Origin: Bacteroidales bacterium | GTDB lineage: Bacteria > Bacteroidota > Bacteroidia > Bacteroidales > VadinHA17 | Assembly: GCA_025455395.1 (NCBI GenBank) | Contig: JALOMO010000038.1 | Coordinates: forward strand, 1 to 34,955 | Reading direction: 5' to 3' | Length of the DNA: 34,955 nt | Notes under the pieces: model-generated | Seen by the model: only the letters and a program-made list of their open reading frames with translations | What the model was told of the DNA's origin: nothing | The model's database searches: none | Made by a program: the position numbers and the translations under genes | Shown: in pieces, positions 2,931 to 32,207 of the stretch | How the letters are laid out: every line of letters begins with the position of its first letter | Position numbering within the stretch: the stretch's first letter is position 1

Positions 2931-3292
2931 ATTAAGCTTTTTTCGTCATTTCCTGTATTCTCAGGCAGTTGAATCATGAAAGCACTAATTTACTGATTTA
3001 AATTCACATATAGGGAATGTCCTGGGCATAGAGTTTTGTACTGAATACCACTGGCAGGTTAAGCAAATAAACAGTGAAACTCTGCCTTAACTCTGAGTAA
3101 CTCTGTGTTAAAAAAGACGACTCCTGCAGCAACCCTTTTACCACAGAGGACACAGAGTTTTAAACTGAGTTACACTGTCAGTTTAGGCTAATAAATTGTG
3201 ATACTCCCCGATAAGCCGGGGCAGGCAGCCTTAACTCTGCATACCTCTGTTCTGGGGATAACCGGATGAAGATGAAACCAATTGAAAAAAAA
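2931..3292. other. Intergenic region with fragments of a dispersed repeat
   Basis: No convincing ORF. The stretch is the divergent space between the MBL gene and the tetR promoter. It contains repeated AACTCTG/CACAGAG words on both strands, with perfect 10-base inverted arms AACTCTGTGT (3099-3108) and ACACAGAGTT (3150-3159). A CCCCG-N6-CGGGG hairpin follows at about 3206-3221. Words of this type are common in intergenic spaces of Bacteroidota and look like a decayed non-coding repeat. Confidence 0.5.
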
Positions 3293-3324
3293 TTTGCTTG
3301 GTTCAAAAATAAAGTTTATCTTTG
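3293..3324 (+). promoter_or_regulatory. Promoter of the TetR/efflux operon
   Basis: TTTG at 3293-3296 and TATCTTTG at 3317-3324 with a 20-base spacer fit the Bacteroidota promoter consensus (TTTG, TAnnTTTG). Transcription would start near 3331, about 25 bases before the tetR ATG. Confidence 0.7.
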
Positions 3325-3338
3325 ACCAGCTGGTTAAA
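3321..3338. promoter_or_regulatory. Candidate TetR operator palindrome
   Basis: An 18-base palindrome, TTTGACCAGCTGGTTAAA, broken by a single mismatched pair (G4/T15) around a perfect 10-base core. It overlaps the -7 element and the probable transcription start of the operon, exactly where an autorepressing TetR protein would bind. Assignment to the TetR encoded 18 bases downstream is inference. Confidence 0.6.
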
Positions 3339-3355
3339 CCTTAAAGTTAATCCTG

Positions 3356-3991
3356 ATGGTTAAAACAAAAAATACAGATCTTCAGACCCAGGAGAGGATA
3401 TTTAAAGCCGCTACCGAAGTCTTCGAGGAAAAGGGGTTCGCTGCAGCACGAATGCAGGAGATAGCCGACCGTGCAGAAATAAACAAAGCCCTCCTTCATT
3501 ATTACTTCAGGTCGAAGGAACTGCTCTTTGAGGCTGTATTCCAGGTACTGCTCAAAAAGATGTTCGAAAAAATACTCTCCGTTTTCATGATGGATATCTC
3601 CTTCGAGAAAAAGATAAAACTCTATTACGAGGAACATATAAATATCCTTATCAAAAATCCAAACCTCCCCCTCTTTCTCCTGAATGAGATCTCTCATAAT
3701 CCCGAGCTGGTTCAGGGTATCCGAGAGACACTCCGCTACTCTGAGATGCGTGATGTCATTTATAAGCAACACTCCAGGGAACTCAGGAAATACGGCATCA
3801 AAAAAGGAGAGCTCCCGCAACTCATGGTGACAGTCGTATCCATGGCCATCTTTCCTTTTGCCGCACGCAATGTCATGAAGATGATGATGGAACAGCTTGG
3901 CGATAACAAGAGCTTCAACAATTTTATGCAGGCAAGAAAAGATTTTGCCTCAGACTTTGTAATTGCAGCATTAAAAAACCGGAAGAAATGA
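3356..3991 (+). CDS. TetR/AcrR family transcriptional regulator
   Basis: 211 residues. The N-terminal HTH is clear: RIFKAATEVFEEKGFAAARM then EIADRAEINKALLHYYFRSK (about residues 14-57), the standard TetR DNA-binding domain. The remaining helical part would bind a ligand, and it has a methionine-rich segment late on (NVMKMMMEQLG). The ATG at 3356 follows the promoter and palindrome directly. The stop codon overlaps the ATG of the TolC-like gene (ATGA), so the regulator is cotranscribed with the efflux genes and probably represses the whole operon until an exported compound binds. The layout resembles the E. coli cecR-ybhGFSR arrangement. Confidence 0.92.
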   Translation: MVKTKNTDLQTQERIFKAATEVFEEKGFAAARMQEIADRAEINKALLHYYFRSKELLFEAVFQVLLKKMFEKILSVFMMDISFEKKIKLYYEEHINILIKNPNLPLFLLNEISHNPELVQGIRETLRYSEMRDVIYKQHSRELRKYGIKKGELPQLMVTVVSMAIFPFAARNVMKMMMEQLGDNKSFNNFMQARKDFASDFVIAALKNRKK

Positions 3992-5271
3992 AAAAGGCAA
4001 TAGTGACCTGTTCTTTGCTGCTGACGTTCGCTGCCGCAGGCGGACAAGCGGTTGTTACGCTTTGGCAGTGCTATGACTCGGCAGCAGCAGCAACACCGCT
4101 TGCAAGAGAGCGGGATATCTATGCGGAGATATCCGCACTGCGCGATAAGAACCTCTCATCAGGCTACCTGCCCGGGGTGGACATTAACGGCAGCTACGCC
4201 TACTACTCTGACATTCCAGATGTCGAAGCAATCTACGGCAGCCTCCCGATACCTCCCGGCACTGCCCCTTCCATACCACATCAATTCTATAAAGCCACTC
4301 TGGACATCAGCCAGGTAATATGGGATGGTGGTGTGACACGCAACGCAAGAGCGGTGGAAGAGGTAATAGAGGAGCTTAACATGAAACAGAACGAGGCGGC
4401 GATCTACCGTCTGCATGATCAGGTAAACAGTTATTACTTCCCGATGCTTCTGGCCATGAGCCAGGCTGAAGTGACCACGGTTCTTCTTTCTGAGCTTGAT
4501 GCCCGGATAAAAGAGGCCTCGTCGGGTGTGAAGAACGGTGTCATCGCGCAGGTGACGGTTGATGTTCTTAATGCCGAAAAGATAAAGGCTGAACAGATGC
4601 TTCTGGAGATACGGCACCGTCATGATGCACTCAGAAAAGCGCTCGGGCAGATAACCGGCATGACCTTCGCTGAAGACGATTCTTTTCTTCTTCCAGAGCC
4701 TGCAATCACTGGAGAAGAGACAATTGACAATCCTGACATACGGCTGTTCGATGTGCGGATAAGGCAGCTCGACGCCAGTAAAGACCTTCTAAAGAGCCAA
4801 CGCATGCCGAGAGCTTTCGGTTTTGCACAGGCAGGCTACGGATTGCCTCCTGGCAACAACTTCTTCTCAGAGGTTCCTGATCCTTATTATTCGGTAGGGG
4901 TAGGCATCAAATGGACTATTTTCGACTGGAACAAGTCCAGCAACGAGCGTAAGTCGCTGACGCTTCAACAGCAGCTGCTTGATATAAACAAGAGTGCCAC
5001 TGAAGAGTCACTGCAGAGGGTGCTTACCGTGAAGATGGCTGAGATAGAAGCATTGCGTGAGGCTGCTGAACGAGATGAGGAGCTGATCATGATAAGACAG
5101 AAGATTGCTGCCGTATCAGCCTCACAGCTGCAGAACGGTACTATCACAGCCTCAGACTATCTGACCGAGCTTAACGGGGAGAAGCAGGCAGTCATAAGTG
5201 CAGCAATGAGAAAGATAAACATCTCAAGGGCTGAGGTCGAGTATATAAACATAACCGGAATAAATAAATAG
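3988..5271 (+). CDS. TolC-like outer membrane efflux protein
   Basis: 427 residues with an N-terminal signal-like segment (MKKAIVTCSLLLTFAAAGGQ) and two alpha-helical coiled-coil repeats typical of the OEP/TolC family. Each repeat has a beta segment, for example GVDINGSYAYYS and YYSVGVGIKWTIFDW, the latter being the classic W-x-[IL]-F-[DN] strand of the barrel. It would form the trimeric outer-membrane channel for the exporter encoded downstream. The start overlaps the tetR stop by four bases, and the HlyD-like gene begins six bases after its end. Length is a little short but normal for Bacteroidota members of efflux operons. Confidence 0.9.
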   Translation: MKKAIVTCSLLLTFAAAGGQAVVTLWQCYDSAAAATPLARERDIYAEISALRDKNLSSGYLPGVDINGSYAYYSDIPDVEAIYGSLPIPPGTAPSIPHQFYKATLDISQVIWDGGVTRNARAVEEVIEELNMKQNEAAIYRLHDQVNSYYFPMLLAMSQAEVTTVLLSELDARIKEASSGVKNGVIAQVTVDVLNAEKIKAEQMLLEIRHRHDALRKALGQITGMTFAEDDSFLLPEPAITGEETIDNPDIRLFDVRIRQLDASKDLLKSQRMPRAFGFAQAGYGLPPGNNFFSEVPDPYYSVGVGIKWTIFDWNKSSNERKSLTLQQQLLDINKSATEESLQRVLTVKMAEIEALREAAERDEELIMIRQKIAAVSASQLQNGTITASDYLTELNGEKQAVISAAMRKINISRAEVEYINITGINK

Positions 5272-5277
5272 AATAAT

Positions 5278-6162
5278 ATGAAGAAGTACATAATACCTGT
5301 AGCGTTACTTATGCTTCTCTCCGGCTGCGGACGGGGTGAGAGTGACGCTGATGCCTGGGGCACCTTTGAGGCTGATGATCTGATCATCTCTGCCGAGACC
5401 TCAGGCAGGATAGTGGCAATGAATGTCGATGAGGGAATGGATGTAAGTGGCGGCGCCGTCATCGCCGTCACCGACACCACCATGCTGGTTCTTCAGCGTG
5501 CCGAGCTGGCAGCGGTGACGGCGGCGGCGCAGGCGCGCCTGGCGGGCATAGCGGCGCAGGACGCGGTTATACGCCAGCAGATCGATAACCTTAATATCAA
5601 TATTGAGCGTACGCGCCGCATGCTCGCTGACGGCGCCGCCACACAGAAACAACTCGATGACCTGACAGGACAGCTTGAGGTCCTCAGGAAACAAGCCGAC
5701 ACCAACAGCACCCAGCGACGATCCGTTGCCGCGGAATTACAGGGCGTGGAAGCCAAACGCGCAATCCTTAACGAACAGATAACCCGCAGTACAGTAACAG
5801 CTCCCTTCGACGCAACAGTCATCGAGACCTACGCTTCTGCCTACGAACTAACAGCCGCCGGCAAACCCCTGGTGAAGCTTGCCAACCTTAAAACAATGGA
5901 ACTGAAGGTATGGGTAAGCGGCGCACAACTGGCCGATGTAAAGATCGGAGACACCTGTACAGCACGTATCGACGAAGGAGAAAAGGGATTCCGAACCTTC
6001 GCCGGCACAATAATCAGGGTGGCAGACAAGGCTGAGTTCACCCCTAAGATCATCCAGACAAAGGAAGAACGCGTGACACTTGTATACGCTGTTACAATCG
6101 AGGTGCCAAATGATGGCTCAATAAAATCAGGTATGCCCGGAGAAGCTATCTTCCAAAAATAA
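5278..6162 (+). CDS. HlyD-family periplasmic adaptor, lipoprotein
   Basis: 294 residues. The signal ends in a lipobox (MLLSGC, lipid cysteine at residue 17), so the adaptor is probably lipid-anchored. Domains in order: a first biotinyl-lipoyl half motif (ISAETSGRIVAMNVDEGMDV), a long coiled-coil hairpin rich in Ala/Gln/Arg (about residues 70-165), the second lipoyl half (STVTAPFDATVIETYASAYE) and a beta-barrel domain (ELKVWVSGAQLADVKIGD). It should bridge the ABC-2 transporter to the TolC-like channel, as in the YbhG/EmrA group. Its TAA stop overlaps the ATG of the first ATPase by one base. Confidence 0.92.
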   Translation: MKKYIIPVALLMLLSGCGRGESDADAWGTFEADDLIISAETSGRIVAMNVDEGMDVSGGAVIAVTDTTMLVLQRAELAAVTAAAQARLAGIAAQDAVIRQQIDNLNINIERTRRMLADGAATQKQLDDLTGQLEVLRKQADTNSTQRRSVAAELQGVEAKRAILNEQITRSTVTAPFDATVIETYASAYELTAAGKPLVKLANLKTMELKVWVSGAQLADVKIGDTCTARIDEGEKGFRTFAGTIIRVADKAEFTPKIIQTKEERVTLVYAVTIEVPNDGSIKSGMPGEAIFQK

Positions 6163-7073
6163 TGGCTGCAGCAGAGGCATATAATGTAACCCACCGCTTC
6201 GGCAATCTCACTGCCGTTGACAATGTCTCATTCAGCATCGGTGAAGGGGAGTTATTCGGATTTATCGGCCCTGACGGGTCAGGCAAGACAACCCTGTTCC
6301 GCATCGCCGCAACACTCGTCATTCCGTCAGACGGAAGAATGACTCTCTTCGGACTCGATACCGTCAGAGACTATAAGGAGCTTCGCAACCATATCGGTTA
6401 CATGCCCGGCAGATTCAGCCTTTACCAGGATCTGACCGTGCAGGAGAACCTCGACTTCTATGCCACGATCTTCGGCACAACGATAAAAGAAAACTATCAT
6501 CTGATCGAACCCATTTACAAGCAGATAGAACCGTTCAGAAAACGTCTTGCCGGAAAACTCTCGGGTGGGATGAAACAGAAGCTGGCACTCTCATGTGCTC
6601 TGATTCACAAACCGAAGATCCTTATCCTCGACGAACCTACCACCGGTGTCGACGCCGTCTCACGCACAGAGTTCTGGGAGATGCTGTCAGGTCTTAAAGC
6701 AGAAGGTATCACAATCATCGTCTCAACTCCCTACATGGATGAGGCATTACGCTGTGACCGCATCGCCCTGATCCAGTCAGGGAAAATCATGGGCATCGAT
6801 ACCCCTGATAACATCCGAAAATCATATACAAAGAGACTATACGCTGTCAGACATCCTGAAAAATACAAACTGCTCCTTGCCCTTCGCTCCTTGCCCCTTG
6901 CCTTAAGCTGCGAGCCCTTCGGTGACTCCGTCCACATAACGCTGCCCGAGGGCACCAGGCCTGATGATATTATAAGCATCCTGAACACCGCAGGACTTCC
7001 GGATGCCTCAATTACGGAGATCATTGCGGGCATCGAGGATGTCTTCCTTGAACTCATGAAACGGGAAAGCTGA
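6162..7073 (+). CDS. ABC transporter ATPase 1 (with degenerate Q- and H-loops)
   Basis: 303 residues. Walker A GPDGSGKT (36-43), signature LSGGMKQK (133-140) and Walker B ILILDEPTTGVD (Asp157, Glu158) are intact. The Q-loop glutamine is replaced by Gly83 (GYMPGRFSLY) and the switch histidine by Pro190 (VSTPYMDEA). The region after about residue 220 is a C-terminal extension as in DrrA-type ATPases. In E. coli YbhF the two ATPase halves are fused; here they are two adjacent genes. The stop TGA overlaps the next ATG by one base, so equal production of the two ATPases is likely. Confidence 0.93.
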   Translation: MAAAEAYNVTHRFGNLTAVDNVSFSIGEGELFGFIGPDGSGKTTLFRIAATLVIPSDGRMTLFGLDTVRDYKELRNHIGYMPGRFSLYQDLTVQENLDFYATIFGTTIKENYHLIEPIYKQIEPFRKRLAGKLSGGMKQKLALSCALIHKPKILILDEPTTGVDAVSRTEFWEMLSGLKAEGITIIVSTPYMDEALRCDRIALIQSGKIMGIDTPDNIRKSYTKRLYAVRHPEKYKLLLALRSLPLALSCEPFGDSVHITLPEGTRPDDIISILNTAGLPDASITEIIAGIEDVFLELMKRES

Positions 7074-7816
7074 TGAATGAACAGAAGGTCATAGAGGTTG
7101 ACAGCCTGGTCAAGAAGTTTGGCTCGTTCGTCGCTAACAACAACCTGACATTTGATGTCTATAAGGGTGAGATATTCGGCTTTCTAGGGGCCAACGGCGC
7201 CGGTAAAACAACTGCCATACGCATCCTCTGCGGACTTTCACGACCATCATCAGGCAAAGTGAAGGTGGCAGGTATCGACGCAGCACACAACCCGGAGGAG
7301 ATAAAGAAACGCATCGGCTATATGTCGCAACGATTCTCCCTGTATGAGGATCTTACTGTAAGTGAAAATATAGAACTCTACGGAGGTATTTACGGAATGC
7401 GGATGAAAGAGATACGCACCCGAACACCTGAACTCCTCTCCAGGCTCAATTTCACGGGCTATGCAGACACACTCATCAGATCACTGCCCCTGGGTCTGAG
7501 ACAGAAGCTGGCCTTTGCAGTTGCCGTGTTCCATGAGCCTGAGATAGTCTTCCTCGATGAACCTACCAGCGGCGTAGACCCTATTACACGCCGACAGTTC
7601 TGGGAGATGATATATGAGACTGCCGGCAATGGTATCACTGTCTTCGTTACCACACATTACATGGATGAAGCGGAATACTGCGACAGGGTGACTATTATGA
7701 ATGAGGGCAGAATTGTTGCTCTTGATACGCCTGCTGCACTCCGTCAGAAATACGGTACAGCATCGGTTGAAGAACTCTTTGTGAAAATCACAAGACCAAA
7801 AAAAGAGTCCGTATGA
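7073..7816 (+). CDS. ABC transporter ATPase 2 (with degenerate signature)
   Basis: 247 residues. Walker A GANGAGKT (39-46), Q-loop Gln86 (GYMSQRFSLY), Walker B IVFLDEPTSGVD (Asp162, Glu163) and switch His195 (TTHYMDEA) are all present. The signature reads LPLGLRQK (138-145) instead of LSGGQ-like. These features complement those of ATPase 1, so a heterodimer would have one consensus and one degenerate ATP site. It works with the two following ABC-2 permeases. The stop overlaps the next start as ATGA. Confidence 0.93.
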   Translation: MNEQKVIEVDSLVKKFGSFVANNNLTFDVYKGEIFGFLGANGAGKTTAIRILCGLSRPSSGKVKVAGIDAAHNPEEIKKRIGYMSQRFSLYEDLTVSENIELYGGIYGMRMKEIRTRTPELLSRLNFTGYADTLIRSLPLGLRQKLAFAVAVFHEPEIVFLDEPTSGVDPITRRQFWEMIYETAGNGITVFVTTHYMDEAEYCDRVTIMNEGRIVALDTPAALRQKYGTASVEELFVKITRPKKESV

Positions 7817-8934
7817 AGAGGTTCATGGCATTCGTAAGGAAAGAGTTCCTTCATATCTTTCGCGACTACAGGACACTGATAATCCTGTTCGGGCTGCCGG
7901 CAGCCCAGATACTCATTTTCGGATATGCAGTGCGCACTGACCTCACCAACGCCTCGATAGCCGTTCTGGACAATGCTCATGATGAGGTCTCGTCAGAACT
8001 TATCATGAAGCTCGAAGCATCAGAATTCTTTACCCTCAGCCATAATATCAAATCATACAGCGAAATTGATGAGGTATTCAGGCAGGGAAAGATAAAGGCT
8101 GTAATTGTCTTCCCTGAAGAGCTGAGTGCCAGGCTGACCCGCGACGGAAACGTCACCGTAAGTATTATTGCTGACGGCTCCGAACCAAACACTGCCAGCC
8201 TGGTGACAGGTTATACCACCGCCATATTGAACGATTGGTCTGCTACCCTTACAAATAAAGTGACGGAGTCATTACCCGTCATTAATACTGAGGTAAAGAT
8301 GTACTTCAATCCTAATCTCGAAAGTCAGTTCATGTTTGTCCCCGGGGTTATCACCCTTATCCTGATTCTTGTCTGCGCCCTGATGACTTCCGTAACAATT
8401 GTTCGTGAGAAGGAGTTCGGAACAATGGAGGTATTGCTTGTATCTCCACTGAAGCCATGGCAGATAGTTATAGGCAAAGTAGCACCCTATTTCTTCCTGT
8501 CACTTGTTAACGTAATTGTGATACTGATCATGGCCTGGTTCGTCTTCGGCCTTCCTGTAATGGGCTCCATATCACTGCTGATGGCTGAATGTATGCTCTA
8601 CATATTGCTGGGGCTCGCCATTGGCATTCTGGTTTCAACATCCGTCCAGAAGATGGAGAATGCCATCTTCATCTCATTCCTCACCCTGATGTTGCCCAGT
8701 CTGCTGCTATCGGGATTCATTTTCCCGATAGAGAATATGCCGAAGGGCTACGACTATTTCAGCATGTTGCTACCCCCCAGGTGGTTCGTTGAGATAATAC
8801 GCTCAGTCATGATCAAGGGATCGGGCTTCAGTTTTGTCTGGAAGGAGACTCTGATACTTGTTCTGATGACAGTCTTCTTCATCGTCCTTAGCGCCAGGAA
8901 GTTCAAAGTAAGGTTAGGGGAGGGAGGCAAATGA
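7813..8934 (+). CDS. ABC-2 type permease 1 (YbhS/YbhR-like)
   Basis: 373 residues. One N-terminal membrane helix (TLIILFGLPAAQILIFGYAV) is followed by a large extracytoplasmic domain (about residues 38-170). Five more helices follow. The conserved cytoplasmic motif VREKEFGTMEVLLVSPLKPW lies between helices 2 and 3. This is the ABC2_membrane_3 / DrrB-like layout. It should form half of the transmembrane path for the exporter. It starts within the ATPase 2 stop (ATGA) and ends in the same type of overlap with permease 2. Confidence 0.93.
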   Translation: MKRFMAFVRKEFLHIFRDYRTLIILFGLPAAQILIFGYAVRTDLTNASIAVLDNAHDEVSSELIMKLEASEFFTLSHNIKSYSEIDEVFRQGKIKAVIVFPEELSARLTRDGNVTVSIIADGSEPNTASLVTGYTTAILNDWSATLTNKVTESLPVINTEVKMYFNPNLESQFMFVPGVITLILILVCALMTSVTIVREKEFGTMEVLLVSPLKPWQIVIGKVAPYFFLSLVNVIVILIMAWFVFGLPVMGSISLLMAECMLYILLGLAIGILVSTSVQKMENAIFISFLTLMLPSLLLSGFIFPIENMPKGYDYFSMLLPPRWFVEIIRSVMIKGSGFSFVWKETLILVLMTVFFIVLSARKFKVRLGEGGK

Positions 8935-10043
8935 GAAAGCTGCTCTTCCTTCTGAAAAAAGAGTTCAGGCAGATCCGCCGTAACCCGTTCATGGCCAGGG
9001 CCATAATCATGGTTCCGCTATTGCAGATGCTCATTCTTGTGCCGGCTATCACCTTTGAGATAAAGCGCGTTGACCTGGCTGTGACAGACAATGACCACAC
9101 TCCTGCCTCACGTGAACTTATTGCACGACTTACAGGATCGTCATTCTTCAGCGTCAGTGATACGCCACGGAGCTATGCGGAGGCTGAAGAGCTGCTCTTA
9201 GCGGGAGATGCAGAGATAGTACTTATTATTCCCGAAGGATTCTCAGCCGGCTTCAGGGGTGTTACAAGACCGCAACTCCAGGTTCTTGCCGATGCTGTAA
9301 ATGCAACAAACGCCCAGCTGGCATGGAGCTACCTCTCTTCTGTTGTGCGCGATTATAACAGGGATATTATCCTCAGCGGGGGCAATGCTCCGTCATCAGT
9401 GCCGGGAATAACAGCTTCTCCCCGCTTCTGGTATAACCCTACCCTCAATTATAAGTATTATATGCTTCCTGGAGTGCTGGTTATACTTATTACAGCGATA
9501 GGACTGCTTATGGCAGGTCTTAATCTCGTCAGAGAGAAGGAGATTGGCACTATCGAGCAGATCAATGTTACACCTGTCATGAAATGGCAGCTGATAGCCT
9601 CAAAAGTCATTCCCTTCTTCATCATAGGGCTCCTTGACCTTGCTCTTGGACTCATCGTGGGATGGATAGCATTCGATATTCCGTTTGAAGGAAGCCTGTT
9701 TCTCTTCTTCGGTTGTGCCGCTATCTTCCTTATTGCCGTTCTCGGACTGGCGCTGTTCTTCTCCACTATGGCATCAACACAGCAGCAGTTTCTCTTTGTC
9801 GCGTTCTTCTTTGTGATGATCTTTGTCCTTATGAGTGGCATCTTCACCCCGTCTGAGAGCATGCCGCAATGGGCACAGCAGTTCAACCATGTGAACCCCG
9901 TCGCTCATCTTATGAAGATTAACAGAATGGTGATGCTAAAAGGATCAGGCTTCGGTGATATAGCAGCCAGCATAGCCGCCCTCTCTCTTCTTGCCATCTC
10001 CTTCATCGCTCTTGCTATCACAGCCTATCGGAAAAGGGCATGA
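8931..10043 (+). CDS. ABC-2 type permease 2 (YbhR/YbhS-like)
   Basis: 370 residues with the same topology as permease 1: an N-terminal helix (AIIMVPLLQMLILVPAITF), a large external domain, the motif VREKEIGTIEQINVTPVMKW and five C-terminal helices. The two permeases are clearly paralogous and probably form a heterodimer. This is the last gene of the operon. The next gene lies on the opposite strand only four bases away, and I see no clear terminator hairpin between them. The transported compound cannot be deduced; relatives export drugs, cationic compounds or lipids. Confidence 0.93.
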   Translation: MRKLLFLLKKEFRQIRRNPFMARAIIMVPLLQMLILVPAITFEIKRVDLAVTDNDHTPASRELIARLTGSSFFSVSDTPRSYAEAEELLLAGDAEIVLIIPEGFSAGFRGVTRPQLQVLADAVNATNAQLAWSYLSSVVRDYNRDIILSGGNAPSSVPGITASPRFWYNPTLNYKYYMLPGVLVILITAIGLLMAGLNLVREKEIGTIEQINVTPVMKWQLIASKVIPFFIIGLLDLALGLIVGWIAFDIPFEGSLFLFFGCAAIFLIAVLGLALFFSTMASTQQQFLFVAFFFVMIFVLMSGIFTPSESMPQWAQQFNHVNPVAHLMKINRMVMLKGSGFGDIAASIAALSLLAISFIALAITAYRKRA

Positions 10044-26309: not shown

Positions 26310-26389
26310 ATTTGCGATTTGCAATTTGCGATTTGCGATTGAGGAGTGACTGAAGACTGAAGATTGAAGACTGAAGACTGAAGACTGAA
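26310..26389 (+). repeat. Two heptanucleotide tandem repeats
   Basis: ATTTGCG/ATTTGCA occurs four times in a row (26310-26337), then GACTGAA/GATTGAA six times (26348-26389). Both have a period of seven bases. They sit in the gap between the lipoprotein gene and the pre-mutL gene. Short heptamer repeats of this kind are seen in intergenic DNA of several Bacteroidota and cyanobacteria; function unknown. Confidence 0.85.
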
Positions 26390-26411: not shown

Positions 26412-26462
26412 CCTGCACCTTAAAAACTCCCTTTTTCTTACTATTTTTGCAAAAAGTGCAGG
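26412..26462 (+). promoter_or_regulatory. Inverted repeat around a possible -7 element
   Basis: CCTGCAC (26412-26418) and GTGCAGG (26456-26462) are perfect inverted arms 37 bases apart; the second touches the ATG at 26463. Between them lies TATTTTTG (26442-26449), matching TAnnTTTG, but no -33 element is evident. Could be an operator or could hide the ribosome site. Confidence 0.35.
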
Positions 26463-26780
26463 ATGGCAATACCTAATTTCTTCAAGCAGAATAAGCCAAG
26501 GGGATTCAACTATACTCCACGCTTCTACGATCCGAAAAAAGAGGAGAGAGAAGTGAGAAGGAGTGTTGGCGGGGAGCGGGGAGACGGAAGACGGAAGACG
26601 GAAGACGGGAGACGGGAACAGGAAGCAGAATCTGCTCCCTACAGGAGCAGGATCATGAGGGGTTCAATGAAGAATTATTTTCCCAGGCAGAGGGAGCGGG
26701 TAGAGAGGCATAACATGATAAGACTGGTTGTCATAGTATTGATACTCATCCTTATAACATACTTTTTTCTACGATTCTAA
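26463..26780 (+). CDS. Small tail-anchored membrane protein upstream of mutL
   Basis: 105 residues. The N-terminal block FNYTPRFYDPKKEEREVR and the C-terminal single helix MIRLVVIVLILILITYFFLRF (not all shown) match a small protein regularly encoded just before mutL in Bacteroidota. The middle, residues about 38-56, is low-complexity because a seven-base repeat (GACGGAA and GACGGGA units, about 26581-26615) lies inside the reading frame. Seven bases is not a multiple of three, so the repeat is read in changing frames and a change in copy number would break the gene. Function unknown. Confidence 0.8.
   Translation: MAIPNFFKQNKPRGFNYTPRFYDPKKEEREVRRSVGGERGDGRRKTEDGRREQEAESAPYRSRIMRGSMKNYFPRQRERVERHNMIRLVVIVLILILITYFFLRF
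26581..26615 (+). repeat. In-frame-disrupting heptanucleotide repeat inside a gene
   Basis: Three GACGGAA units followed by two GACGGGA units within the pre-mutL gene. The unit resembles the GACTGAA unit found about 230 bases upstream, which suggests a shared origin. Confidence 0.8.
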
Positions 26781-26793
26781 TGCCTTTCATAAG

Positions 26794-28509
26794 ATGAGTG
26801 ATATTATCAGGCTTCTTCCAGACTCCGTTGCCAACCAGATCGCAGCAGGTGAGGTTATACAGCGACCTGCCTCGGTGGTGAAGGAGCTGACTGAGAACGC
26901 CATTGACGCCGGTGCATCTGAGATCACAGTGGTGATAAAAGATGCCGGACGCACCCTGGTACAGGTTATTGATAACGGTAGCGGCATGAGTGAGACGGAT
27001 GCCCGCCTGGCCTTCGAGCGACATGCTACTTCCAAGATCTCGTCTGCCGATGACCTCTTTTCCATCACAACAAAAGGGTTCCGGGGTGAAGCGCTTGCCT
27101 CAGTGGCAGCAGTGTCGATGACCGAGCTTCGCACCAAAAGAGAGGAAGATGAGGAGGGTACCCTGGTTGAGATAAGCAACTCACGGGTGACAAGGCAGGA
27201 GCCCTGCTCATGCGCCACAGGATCGGTCATCAGCCTGGCACATCCTGAGATAAAATTCACCCTGGTACACAATGACCAGGATCTATACCGTCTGCCGGCA
27301 TCAAATAACAGGCAGCGTATCGTCGCTCTCTTCGGGAAACACTACAACCAGAACCTGGTTACTGTAGAGACCACCACCTCCATTGTCAGTATCACTGGCT
27401 TTGCCGGGAAACCCGAGAATGCACGGCGGTCACCCGGAGAACAGTTCTTCTTCATTAACAACAGGTTCATCCGACACCCCTACCTGCACCGTGCTGTGAT
27501 GGAGGCTTACCAGGGAATACTGCCTCCCGAATCCGTTCCGTCATATTTCCTCTACATGACTGCCGATCCTTCATCCATCGATGTTAATATCCACCCTACA
27601 AAGACTGAGATAAAGTTCGAGGATGAGAGGTCTGTATGGCAGATAATGCTCGCCTCTGTCCGTGAGGCTCTTGGAAGATTCAACGTAGTGCCGTCACTTG
27701 ACTTCGGCCCCGAGGGGGCAGTGGAGATACCCGTCATCACAGGTGGCATGCCCCCACCACAGTCGCCGCGTATTGATGTTGACCAGAGCTTCAATCCTTT
27801 TCAGGGTACTGAATACAGCCGGCCTGAGACGAAATGGAAGGGTGATCATGAACATGGAGCCCCACAGGGGTGGGAGTCGCTCTTTACTGTCACGGCACGC
27901 AGCCACGAGACTGCAGGGAAAGAGGGGATCCAATCACCCTCCGGCAGCCAGCGACGTTTCTTCCAGATAAAGAACAGGTATATCATGTGCCCCGTCATCT
28001 CAGGAATAATGATGATAGACCAGCGGAGAGCACACGAGCGGGTGCTCTATGAGAAATACCTGGCATCACTTGGTGACGGCCCTGTGCCGGCGCAGGTGTC
28101 GCTCTTCCCCGTGGAGACAGAACTAAATCCGGCTGACATTGTTATAATTGACGAGATAAAAGAAGATATCAGGAGACTGGGTTTCGAGGTGGAGAGCAGC
28201 AGTGACAACATGGTCACTATAACCGCTCATCCGGCCGACAGCCGCAACGTGAGCCCTCTTGCCATGCTTGAGACATTGATAACAGAATACAAACAGACGC
28301 TTAATGATCCTTCGATAGGTGCCAGGGAACGGGTAGCCCTCTCGATGGCAAAAGCATCGGCCATACCCTACGGAATGCCGCTGACACATGATGAGATGGA
28401 GGAGCTGTTTGACCAGTTGTTTGCATGCTCCATGCCAAACTATTCACCCACTGGGCGGACGGTGATGAACATACTAACCCTCGAAGAGCTTGACAGAAGA
28501 TTCGGCTGA
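26794..28509 (+). CDS. mutL: DNA mismatch repair protein MutL with an internal deletion
   Basis: 571 residues. GHKL ATPase motifs are present: KELTENAIDAG (Glu31, Asn35), DNGSGM (60-65), TSKI and GFRGEAL (95-101). The sequence then jumps from CSCATGSVIS (138-147) straight to LAHPEIKFTL, leaving out the roughly 33 residues that in other MutL proteins carry the NLFFNxPARRKF motif. The reading frame is kept. The C-terminal domain shows IDQRRAHERVLYE, where relatives usually have DQH, so the histidine is Arg411. The last part (FACSMPNYSPTGR) is normal. MutL couples mismatch recognition to strand removal; ATPase and DNA-binding function here may be impaired. Confidence 0.9.
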   Translation: MSDIIRLLPDSVANQIAAGEVIQRPASVVKELTENAIDAGASEITVVIKDAGRTLVQVIDNGSGMSETDARLAFERHATSKISSADDLFSITTKGFRGEALASVAAVSMTELRTKREEDEEGTLVEISNSRVTRQEPCSCATGSVISLAHPEIKFTLVHNDQDLYRLPASNNRQRIVALFGKHYNQNLVTVETTTSIVSITGFAGKPENARRSPGEQFFFINNRFIRHPYLHRAVMEAYQGILPPESVPSYFLYMTADPSSIDVNIHPTKTEIKFEDERSVWQIMLASVREALGRFNVVPSLDFGPEGAVEIPVITGGMPPPQSPRIDVDQSFNPFQGTEYSRPETKWKGDHEHGAPQGWESLFTVTARSHETAGKEGIQSPSGSQRRFFQIKNRYIMCPVISGIMMIDQRRAHERVLYEKYLASLGDGPVPAQVSLFPVETELNPADIVIIDEIKEDIRRLGFEVESSSDNMVTITAHPADSRNVSPLAMLETLITEYKQTLNDPSIGARERVALSMAKASAIPYGMPLTHDEMEELFDQLFACSMPNYSPTGRTVMNILTLEELDRRFG

Positions 28510-28561
28510 GATTCGGATAGAATGGCTAAATTTGTCAGCTCAGAAACTATAGAAAACCGAA

Positions 28562-29296
28562 ATGAACAGTGGATTTGCAGGCCTTCCGCCAATAGTAAAG
28601 AATATAATCATCCTTAATGTAGTAATGCTGCTGCTTACAGCGGCACTGAAGGCTATGTGGGGGACTGATCTTAACAGCATACTGGGCCTCTACTACCCTG
28701 AATCTGATTACTTCAGGTCGTGGCAGATAGTGACTCACATGTTCATGCACGGCGGGTTTATACATCTTTTCTTCAATATGTTTGCTCTCTTTATGTTCGG
28801 GGGCGTTCTGGAGAGAGTGTGGGGTCCGCAACGGTTTCTGATTTACTACCTGATCACCGGCCTTGGTGCCGCTTTCACCCATGAAGCGGTAATGTGGCTG
28901 CAGTATACCAGGGCAATGGATTCACTCAGTCCTGAACAACTCCAGCGTATATATGATGAGGGACTGGAAGTACTGAGGTCCGGACAAGCGTATACCAACA
29001 ATGCTGCCCAGACACTAAGCACCATCCTCAATGTTCCTACCGTCGGAGCCTCAGGTGCTGTCTTCGGTGTACTGCTTGCTTTTGGTGTGCTTTTTCCCAA
29101 CACGCAGCTGATGCTTATCTTCCCTCCCATCCCTATCAAGGCCAAGTACTTTGTCCTCGGTTACGGCGCCATAGAGCTATACCTCGCTGTTACTAGCCCT
29201 GGGAGCAACATAGCACATGCGGCTCATCTTGGCGGAATGATTTTCGGATATATGCTGATACGATACTGGCGTAAGACCACTAAAACACTATACTGA
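28562..29296 (+). CDS. Rhomboid family intramembrane serine protease 1
   Basis: 244 residues with six or more helices. The rhomboid core is complete: HMFMHGGFIHLFFNMFALFM, GASGAVFG (catalytic Ser164) and HAAHLGG (catalytic His222). A soluble insertion of about 40 residues (115-158) separates two helices. It would cleave single-pass proteins within the membrane; targets unknown. It begins 52 bases after mutL, and its stop overlaps the start of the second rhomboid (TGATG). Confidence 0.92.
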   Translation: MNSGFAGLPPIVKNIIILNVVMLLLTAALKAMWGTDLNSILGLYYPESDYFRSWQIVTHMFMHGGFIHLFFNMFALFMFGGVLERVWGPQRFLIYYLITGLGAAFTHEAVMWLQYTRAMDSLSPEQLQRIYDEGLEVLRSGQAYTNNAAQTLSTILNVPTVGASGAVFGVLLAFGVLFPNTQLMLIFPPIPIKAKYFVLGYGAIELYLAVTSPGSNIAHAAHLGGMIFGYMLIRYWRKTTKTLY

Positions 29297-30183
29297 TGGG
29301 GATCTGGGATGAGATAAAGGCATCATTCAGGCACGGTACAAGCCTCACGAGGCTCATCTACGTCAATGCCGGCATATTCCTGATCATAAAGATACTTGAG
29401 ATGATCAGCGTCCTGGCTTCAAGACCTGAACTGGCAGCGACAGTTATCTCATATCTCGCGGTCCCTGCCTCCGTAGGAGCACTGGCGGGTAAGCCGTGGA
29501 CACCCGTAACATACATGTTCCTGCACCAGGGGTTCATTCACTTTCTCTTCAACATGCTGTGGCTATGGTGGTTCGGAAAAATCTTCGTGTCCTATCTAGA
29601 CCAGCGTAAGGTGGTATCACTATACCTCATGGGCGGATTAGCAGGGGCTCTGCTCTATATAATCATCTTTAACATATTCCCCGCCTTTGCCGGTGCCGTA
29701 AACGTCTCTGTCGCCCTTGGCGCTTCCGCCGCGGTAATGGCTCTCGTGGTTGCCACTGCCGTATATCTTCCTGAAATGGAGCTTCACCTCCTCTTCTTCG
29801 GAAGGATAAGACTAAAGTATCTTGCACTCATCACCTTCCTGATAACTTCCGTCTTTGACTTTTCGGTTAACACCGGAGGCAAGATAGCACACATTGGCGG
29901 TGCTCTGATGGGGCTTGCCTACGGCTACGGGCTGAAGAACGGAACAGATATAGGGGCATGGCTCAACAGTATCATTGATTTCTTTGTGACACTCTTCAAA
30001 CCGGGCAGGCGGATGAAGGTGACATATAAAAAGCCTAAGACAGACTACGACTACAATAAGATCAAAGCCGAAAGACAAAAGGCAATAGATCACATACTTG
30101 ACAAGATCTCAAAAGGCGGTTATGACAGTCTCACCAGAGAAGAAAAAGAGATCCTCTTCAGCGAGAGTCAGCAGAAAAAGTAG
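29296..30183 (+). CDS. Rhomboid family intramembrane serine protease 2
   Basis: 295 residues. It has the helix block YMFLHQGFIHFLFNMLWLWW, the serine motif GASAAVMA (Ser144; Gly is replaced by Ala after the serine) and AHIGGALMG (His199). The C-terminal tail (about residues 235-295) is cytoplasmic, charged and ends in a helical segment (HILDKISKGGYDSLTREEKE) that is common in this Bacteroidota subgroup. Paired rhomboids after mutL recur in this phylum; they may form a functional pair, but this is not shown. Confidence 0.9.
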   Translation: MGIWDEIKASFRHGTSLTRLIYVNAGIFLIIKILEMISVLASRPELAATVISYLAVPASVGALAGKPWTPVTYMFLHQGFIHFLFNMLWLWWFGKIFVSYLDQRKVVSLYLMGGLAGALLYIIIFNIFPAFAGAVNVSVALGASAAVMALVVATAVYLPEMELHLLFFGRIRLKYLALITFLITSVFDFSVNTGGKIAHIGGALMGLAYGYGLKNGTDIGAWLNSIIDFFVTLFKPGRRMKVTYKKPKTDYDYNKIKAERQKAIDHILDKISKGGYDSLTREEKEILFSESQQKK

Positions 30184-31306
30184 CGGGATAAAACGCTTTT
30201 CGCGAAACATCCTTCTGTCGGTAAATATGATTCTTGCCGCAGCGCTTATACTTGCCTACCTCTCAATATACATTAACCCCTCAGCCACAGCTATCCCATC
30301 GCTCTTCGGCCTGGCCTATCCCTATATCGTGGCAGCTAATATCATCATGGTACTTATCTGGGTTATATTCAGAAAGTGGTACGCACTGGTGTCAATATCA
30401 CTCATAGCCATTGGTTTTGGTTATCTGCACAATTTTATCAGGTTCAGCAACCACGGTTCCGAGGAGCATCATGACCTCAAGGTAATGAGCTACAACATAC
30501 GGCTGTTCAACTATTACGAGGATAGCCAGAGGGATTCCTACCGCAAGATGCTGCAGCTCATGAGGAAGGAGGAGCCCGGGATAATATGTCTGCAGGAGTA
30601 TTTCGTCAAAGGGAGCCCCTGGTCCGGAGAAAAGAAGCTTAAAGAGGGTCTCGGGGGAAGGGTCTATACCCACTTTAAGCTTATAAAAAGCGGGTCATCA
30701 AGTCATTACGGGATAGCAACCATCACCCGGTACCCTATCATCAGGAGAGGTGATATAGTCCATCCCGGGTCATCATCACTGACGATCTTTACAGATATTG
30801 TTGTCGACGCTGATACCTTCAGGATTTACAATAACCACCTACAGTCGTTCAGGCTGAGGCGCGTGGAGGGCAACCTCCTGACTGAAATAACAGGCGAGGT
30901 TCAGGAGGGCTCAATGAGCAATGTTAAGGAGATATACAAGAGCCTGATCAACGGTTTTGCCAGCCGCTCACTGCAGGCAGACAGGGTAAAGGAGCATATA
31001 AGCACTTCACCATACCCTGTGATTGTTGCCGGAGACTTCAATGACACCCCGGTATCATATACTTACCGCAAGATGAGGCGAGGTCTTAAGGATGCCTTTG
31101 TTGAGGCGGGCTACGGTGCAGGATTCACCTATCGTGGTAAGTACCCTCCGAACAGGATTGATTATATACTTTATAACGAAGAGATTGAGTGTAATGATTT
31201 TGACATTGTCAAAGCCAGGTATTCCGATCACTACCCTGTCATAGCCTATTTCAGGCGTGCTGACCAAAAGGGAGCTTTGCCAGGTCAACATTCCCACCGG
31301 AAATAA
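30122..31306 (+). CDS. Membrane-anchored EEP-family protein (endonuclease/exonuclease/phosphatase)
   Basis: 394 residues from the ATG at 30122. A basic N-terminus is followed by three helices (LLSVNMILAAALILAYLSIY, IVAANIIMVLIWVIF, LVSISLIAIGFGYL). The EEP domain has MSYNIRLFNYY, GIICLQEYF (Glu), YNNHLQSFRLRR, VAGDFNDTPVSYTY, NRIDYILYN and SDHYPVIAYF. The gene overlaps the second rhomboid by 62 bases in another frame; a TTG at 30098 would extend it, but the ATG has AAAAGG at good spacing. Its end overlaps the convergent dehydratase gene by 56 bases. Substrate unknown. Confidence 0.88.
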   Translation: MTVSPEKKKRSSSARVSRKSSGIKRFSRNILLSVNMILAAALILAYLSIYINPSATAIPSLFGLAYPYIVAANIIMVLIWVIFRKWYALVSISLIAIGFGYLHNFIRFSNHGSEEHHDLKVMSYNIRLFNYYEDSQRDSYRKMLQLMRKEEPGIICLQEYFVKGSPWSGEKKLKEGLGGRVYTHFKLIKSGSSSHYGIATITRYPIIRRGDIVHPGSSSLTIFTDIVVDADTFRIYNNHLQSFRLRRVEGNLLTEITGEVQEGSMSNVKEIYKSLINGFASRSLQADRVKEHISTSPYPVIVAGDFNDTPVSYTYRKMRRGLKDAFVEAGYGAGFTYRGKYPPNRIDYILYNEEIECNDFDIVKARYSDHYPVIAYFRRADQKGALPGQHSHRK

Positions 31307-32207
31307 TTATCGCCACTGTCTTGCCGGCAAAGAGGTGCCTGTTGCCAAGCACGGCTGCCAGAGGCACTGCTGATGAAGGCTCGATTATGATCTTCATCCT
31401 CTCCCATACAAGCCGCATGGCTTCTTTTATATCCTCCTCACTGACGGTCAGGATATCATCTGCCTTTTTGCTGATGACTGTAAATGTTCTTTCGCAAAGT
31501 GATGTAAGGAGTCCGTCGGCTATTGTTCGCGGCGGCAATGCCGGCTGCAGTGTTCCGGTATGCAATGATCTTGCAGCGTCATCAGCAAGGATTGGTTCTG
31601 CGCCGTAGATCTTTATCGAGGGAGCCAGGTGGCGGGCAGTGATGGCAGTGCCGCTGAGGAGGCCGCCGCCGCCGACAGGAGCCAGCACGGCGTCAGGGGA
31701 CGGGTGGTCTGTCAGCAGCTCCAGCGCCGCCGTGCCCTGCCCGGCGATAATATTAAAGTTGTCAAAAGGATGTATCATGGTGGCGCCGGTACGCCTGATG
31801 ATTTCGGCGGCGGCGGCCTCCCTCGCTGCCAGCGTGGGCTCACAGAAGGTTATCTCAGCCCCGTAGCCAGCCACAGCCCTCTTCTTCACCTCCGGCGCCG
31901 TGGAGGGCATCACGATGCAGGCCCTTACCCCCCTCGATACAGCAGCAAGAGCCAGTGCCGCAGCATGATTACCCGATGAATGGGTGACAACACCACGCCG
32001 GCGATCCTCCTCATTAAGGCTCAGGACGGCATTGGTGGCTCCCCTGAACTTGAATGCCCCTACCTTCTGGAAGTTCTCACACTTGAACAGGAGATGAGCC
32101 CCTGCGATAGCGTCAAGCTGCCGTGAGGTGAGGACGGGTGTGCGGTGCACAAAGGGAGCTATAGCCTCTGAGGCTGCAACAACATCTTTAAATTCAGGTA
32201 TATACAT
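31251..32207 (-). CDS. Threonine dehydratase / serine racemase-like PLP enzyme
   Basis: 318 residues of fold-type II PLP enzymes. The Schiff-base lysine is Lys53 (FKFRGATNA), the substrate loop SSGNHAAAL (77-85), and a glycine-rich phosphate loop GGGGLLSG follows. There is no C-terminal ACT regulatory domain, so it is the short form that includes catabolic threonine dehydratase and serine racemase. Reaction: either threonine to 2-oxobutanoate and ammonia, or serine racemisation and dehydration. The usual SSGNHGQ is SSGNHAA here, so specificity may be altered. It lies downstream of hppA on the same strand, but a terminator hairpin separates them. Confidence 0.88.
   Translation of the reverse strand: MYIPEFKDVVAASEAIAPFVHRTPVLTSRQLDAIAGAHLLFKCENFQKVGAFKFRGATNAVLSLNEEDRRRGVVTHSSGNHAAALALAAVSRGVRACIVMPSTAPEVKKRAVAGYGAEITFCEPTLAAREAAAAEIIRRTGATMIHPFDNFNIIAGQGTAALELLTDHPSPDAVLAPVGGGGLLSGTAITARHLAPSIKIYGAEPILADDAARSLHTGTLQPALPPRTIADGLLTSLCERTFTVISKKADDILTVSEEDIKEAMRLVWERMKIIIEPSSAVPLAAVLGNRHLFAGKTVAIIISGGNVDLAKLPFGQHA

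Follow-up and report, generated by a model that had tools for sequence, protein, structure and literature searches.

A 99-base in-frame gap in mutL of a Bacteroidales draft genome: fresh deletion or assembly slip

The mutL locus and its closest described counterparts

The entries 1b63, 1bkn and 7p8v, which we take to be E. coli MutL, provide one of the closest described counterparts of the protein considered here, and the MutL of an intact relative aligns with their N-terminal domain from residue 5 with E values of about 1e-65 to 1e-68. The mutL gene in the window, which is the whole stretch of 34,955 nucleotides that was analysed, encodes a protein in which the counterpart of E. coli MutL residues 147-179 (approximate limits, in the 7p8v chain numbering) is absent. 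Mutator alleles of mismatch repair genes offer a further comparison, since the lesion here likewise lies in a mismatch-repair gene. Unlike the case of those alleles, however, there is no transition excess in the neighbouring genes of the window.

The gene occupies positions 26794-28509 of the forward strand and comprises 571 codons plus a stop, as delimited by the open reading frame and by a match to TIGR00585 that scores 407.4 bits (cut-off 180) in two stretches, the better of which covers residues 5-147. The profile matches to the GHKL ATPase domain (HATPase_c_3, 26869-27159), the transducer domain (PF01119, residues 177-293, 27322-27672) and the C-terminal dimerisation domain (MutL_C, PF08676, residues 390-526, 27961-28371, 80.9 bits against a cut-off of 25) lie on the same strand, and all three are retained with scores above cut-off. 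Between the ATPase and transducer domains, CSCATGSVIS is joined directly to LAHPEIKFTL, and none of the 33 residues that form the LFYNxPARRKF loop and the next helix is present.

The nearest relative found is the contig JAKEGI010000020.1 of a Bacteroidales MAG, which entered the comparison both as L038 and as L009. This relative and a second one, JALOMM010000160.1 (L039), have the same gene in the same neighbourhood, with DNA identities around mutL of 88-89% and 84-86%, respectively, and in all three records mutL is followed by three genes, presumably two rhomboid-like ones and one of the exo/endonuclease-phosphatase type. In the DNA alignment, window positions 26418-27234 correspond to 2351-3167 of L038 and positions 27235-31980 to 3267-8012, which leaves 99 bases of L038 (3168-3266) without a counterpart. 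Both relatives carry the 33 codons concerned, whereas the window lacks them. The right-hand alignment is gap-free over its 4746 bases, and the left-hand one has three small gaps, none of them in mutL, the lengths of mutL to the left of the break being equal. The break, at 27234/27235 of the forward strand, falls between two codons and keeps the reading frame. A preliminary description of this locus had reported the absence of about 33 residues with the frame kept; alignment with L038 bears this out as exactly 99 bases, and the junction given there is right to the base.

Several other features of the window and its relatives were recorded. Arrays of 7-base repeats (ATTTGCG, GACTGAA and AGACGGA) lie just upstream of mutL at 26310-26340, 26348-26389 and 26582-26615, the last of these inside the open reading frame 26463-26780, whose match to relatives is gapped. 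As the units are 7 bases long, a change in copy number would shift the frame. Further upstream, cross-matches in a relative show that 7813-8934 resembles 8931-10043 (about 28%) and that 6162-7073 resembles 7073-7816 (about 40-43%), with the gene order across 6162-10043 kept in that relative. The L039 counterpart of the window frame 30098-31306, at 4941-6148, is in two pieces in different frames, likely the result of a frameshift in the record.

Distribution of the gap and conservation of the lost segment

The MutL proteins of 29 genus and family loci and 80 GTDB loci were aligned with that of the window, giving 110 rows. All 33 residues are present in each of the 109 other rows, which include some contigs twice and comprise 92 distinct proteins as judged by the last 300 residues; the alignment of the window with related genomes thus confirms the gap and also rules out that the segment has moved elsewhere in MutL. 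When the window MutL was used as the query, 57 of 60 genomes of wider relatives yielded a match, the genome of origin among them, and the match broke at the junction in all 56 others. Within the genus, 21 of 22 genomes had a match, again including the genome of origin (the one without a match is 79% complete), and the break recurred in 20 of 20. The prospect raised earlier that other strains might share the gap is therefore not borne out in either set. An order-wide search of 247 genomes, 238 of them with a match including the genome of origin, lends partial support as it rests on the matches listed: among these, which leave out the weak best matches of G087, G148 and G194, the break at this segment occurs only in the window's genome, and the match in G188 starts at a contig end. 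No form intermediate between the full-length and the 33-residue-short MutL was seen among the relatives compared. The gap is private to the window's genome among the genomes compared.

Gaps in other genes of the window were surveyed using 42 open reading frames of at least 100 amino acids, shadow frames included, that have a homologue in four related genomes; the survey covers the window less the parts with few or no matches, mainly about 20.8-24.7 kb. In orthologous matches, gaps of at least 33 residues are confined to mutL and its own antisense shadow. The next largest gap, of 23 residues, belongs to the repeat-bearing frame 26463-26780, and a gap total of 37 residues occurs only in a secondary match of 27% identity. 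The mutL gap is more than chance among the frames compared.

The lost segment is structurally central, as it contains the LFYNxPARRKF loop together with the helix that links the ATPase and transducer domains. In an AlphaFold model of the intact relative (pTM 0.47, mean pLDDT 65.7), it starts where strand 144-149 ends and comprises the loop and the greater part of the long helix 166-182, which precedes the transducer domain and is missing from the model of the window MutL (pTM 0.39, mean pLDDT 57.4). Both models were built from 11-12 sequences, and even the intact protein is modelled with low confidence over much of its N-terminal domain; the models therefore serve as illustration only. Seven of the 33 lost columns (N154, P156, R158, R159, F161, L162 and K163 in L009 numbering) are invariant in all 109 rows, compared with 38 of 604 columns across the whole of MutL. 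Because of these seven, the window MutL should be inactive.

The endonuclease site of Bacteroidota MutL

By alignment, the stretch DQRRAHERVLYE (28018-28053, forward strand) is the counterpart of the DQHA(X)2E(X)4E motif, with Arg411 where histidine might be expected. This arginine had been counted earlier as a further oddity of the protein. It is present but ordinary: the column reads R in 46 rows, K in 39, Q in 6, H in 5, E in 4 and S in 4, with other residues in the remainder, so that R or K accounts for 85 of the 110 rows. Within the genus, 20 of 21 rows (the window included) have R and one has K, the local sequence being DQRRAHER and, in that one row, DQKRAHER. As R and K are the usual residues of the lineage here, Arg411 is ruled out as a second lesion.

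In B. subtilis MutL, residues E468, H464, C573, C604 and H606 are the ligands of two zinc ions, according to PMC2965676. The MutL endonuclease domain 3gab was included in the alignment, and the motif given for B. subtilis in that paper agrees with the 3gab stretch. At the corresponding positions the window MutL has DQRRAHERVLYE and YSPTGRT and lacks counterparts of H464, C573, C604 and H606; the stretches of the C-terminal domain concerned are 28018-28053 and 28429-28458. The same comparison was made for 106 Bacteroidota rows, that is, the 110 rows less L029, L058, L097 and L103, in which the C-terminus is incomplete, with the window and duplicates included. The first Asp of the motif is kept in 103 of the 106 rows and the two Glu residues in 95 and 102, and the H464 position is histidine in 5. 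Serine (82 rows) or threonine (24) takes the C604 position; no row has histidine at the H606 position or cysteine at that of C573. The absence of the Cys/His ligands is therefore lineage-wide and not special to the window's genome.

A MutH match was obtained in none of the 31 genomes searched and, among 14 controls, in E. coli only. No article on Bacteroidota MutL without the Cys/His ligands was found by title, and the available portion of PMC2292703 does not treat the subject. A MutL without these ligands throughout the Bacteroidota, in genomes where MutH went undetected, poses a more general question, namely how DNA is nicked during their mismatch repair. This by-product of the analysis may be worth more attention.

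Deletion in cells or error of assembly

The mutL gene is under normal selection. Its dN/dS is 0.040 between the window and L038 and 0.048 between L038 and L039; for the window and L038, the value is 0.041 in each of two downstream genes and 0.112 and 0.165 in two other neighbouring genes. The relaxed codon conservation that the preliminary description had proposed as a sign of altered repair is thus absent from mutL. When changes are polarised by L039, the nonsynonymous and synonymous counts in mutL are 14 and 70 on the window branch and 13 and 54 on the L038 branch (p 0.68). Over five genes, the window branch has 89 synonymous transitions and 75 synonymous transversions, compared with 87 and 45 for the L038 branch (p 0.044); this is the reverse of the surplus of transitions that a lack of mismatch repair should produce. 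The total of synonymous changes, 164 versus 132 (p 0.07), is a mild excess on the window branch and the sole result that leans towards a mutator lineage. These branch counts leave out the EEP gene, for which L039 provides three codons only and a match in two frames, and include the frame 26463 with 43 codons for L038. Neither relaxed selection nor a transition-rich spectrum is seen on the window branch, although a recent loss of mutL would leave no trace in the spectrum. The gene shows no sign of age, in that there is no older decay. With normal selection on mutL, no transition excess and no relative with the gap, an established mutator lineage is unsupported. MutS_V was matched in an open frame of 893 residues and a second time in one of 610 residues. 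Of the two explanations originally offered, altered repair and bases lost in assembly, both stand; the idea of an established mutator lineage and the support drawn from Arg411 do not.

A genuine deletion of recent date is about as likely as an error of assembly. We assign an even chance to the reading that a recent, real, private and clean deletion of 99 bases took place in an otherwise ordinary Bacteroidales mutL. A single clean event would have removed the loop and the long helix that connect the ATPase and transducer domains, and it would be recent, if present in cells. The ATPase domain would then be unable to fold or cycle properly, and the affected cells would be devoid of mismatch repair; no second mutL copy was found in the genome, which is 89.1% complete. 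We infer, on this reading, a deletion present in cells, a dead protein and a mutator phenotype.

A little short of an even chance is the reading that cells of this population have an intact mutL and that the 99 bases were lost at a join or gap closure, as an artefact of assembly or binning. The draft state of the source genome, which comprises 207 contigs and is 4.29% contaminated, suits such an error, as do the restriction of the gap to one genome and the lack of decay in the rest of mutL; the unrelaxed dN/dS fits a recent loss and equally no loss. Against an artefact, the window has no Ns at the junction, the frame is kept (a one-in-three chance for an arbitrary loss) and no second such gap occurs among the 42 open reading frames compared.

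The breakpoints bear on both readings. Natural deletions of about this size often use short repeats, and with L038 in the place of the ancestor the two breakpoints share no bases. A deletion between direct repeats is thus not supported, and the lack of a breakpoint repeat counts against a real deletion, in so far as L038 can represent the bases that the window has lost. Breakpoints without homology would also suit an arbitrary join. A false join by a graph assembler, however, normally needs shared k-mers, so the lack of shared bases would likewise argue against a false join. Unusually conserved DNA at the deletion site is ruled out, as the segment ranks only 131st of 571 windows in its conservation relative to L009, and a tangle of shared sequence is accordingly not specially likely.

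Divergence along the gene is similarly two-sided. Identity to L038 is 0.912 in both 147-base blocks that flank the junction, with no step in similarity, which speaks against an artefact and lends no support to a chimera switching exactly at the junction, though dS differs between the two sides. To the left and right of the junction, dS is 0.354 and 0.620 for the window and L038, 0.788 and 0.621 for the window and L039, and 0.864 and 0.498 for L038 and L039, the change along mutL being gradual by blocks. The inequality favours an artefact to the extent that it may reflect mixed assembly, and it may also reflect past recombination in mutL.

It is very improbable that the shortened MutL works and is tolerated because repair in the lineage has changed: the kept frame, the normal purifying selection and the ATPase, transducer and C-terminal matches above cut-off would fit, but the lost residues occur in all 109 other rows, seven of them invariant, no relative is intermediate and the shortened protein gave the poorer model. 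Slighter still is the chance of a living Bacteroidales species whose mismatch repair runs on a much reduced MutL, one without loop and helix in a phylum already without the Cys/His endonuclease ligands.

The mutL gene of this genome has thus either been broken only recently or lost its 99 bases through a slip of assembly, and there is no indication of a mutator lineage of long standing. As an artefact, the gap would demonstrate that a loss which is clean, in frame and free of Ns can reach a public genome record and pass for biology. If the deletion is real, the genome would be a snapshot of an uncultured population just after the loss of mismatch repair.
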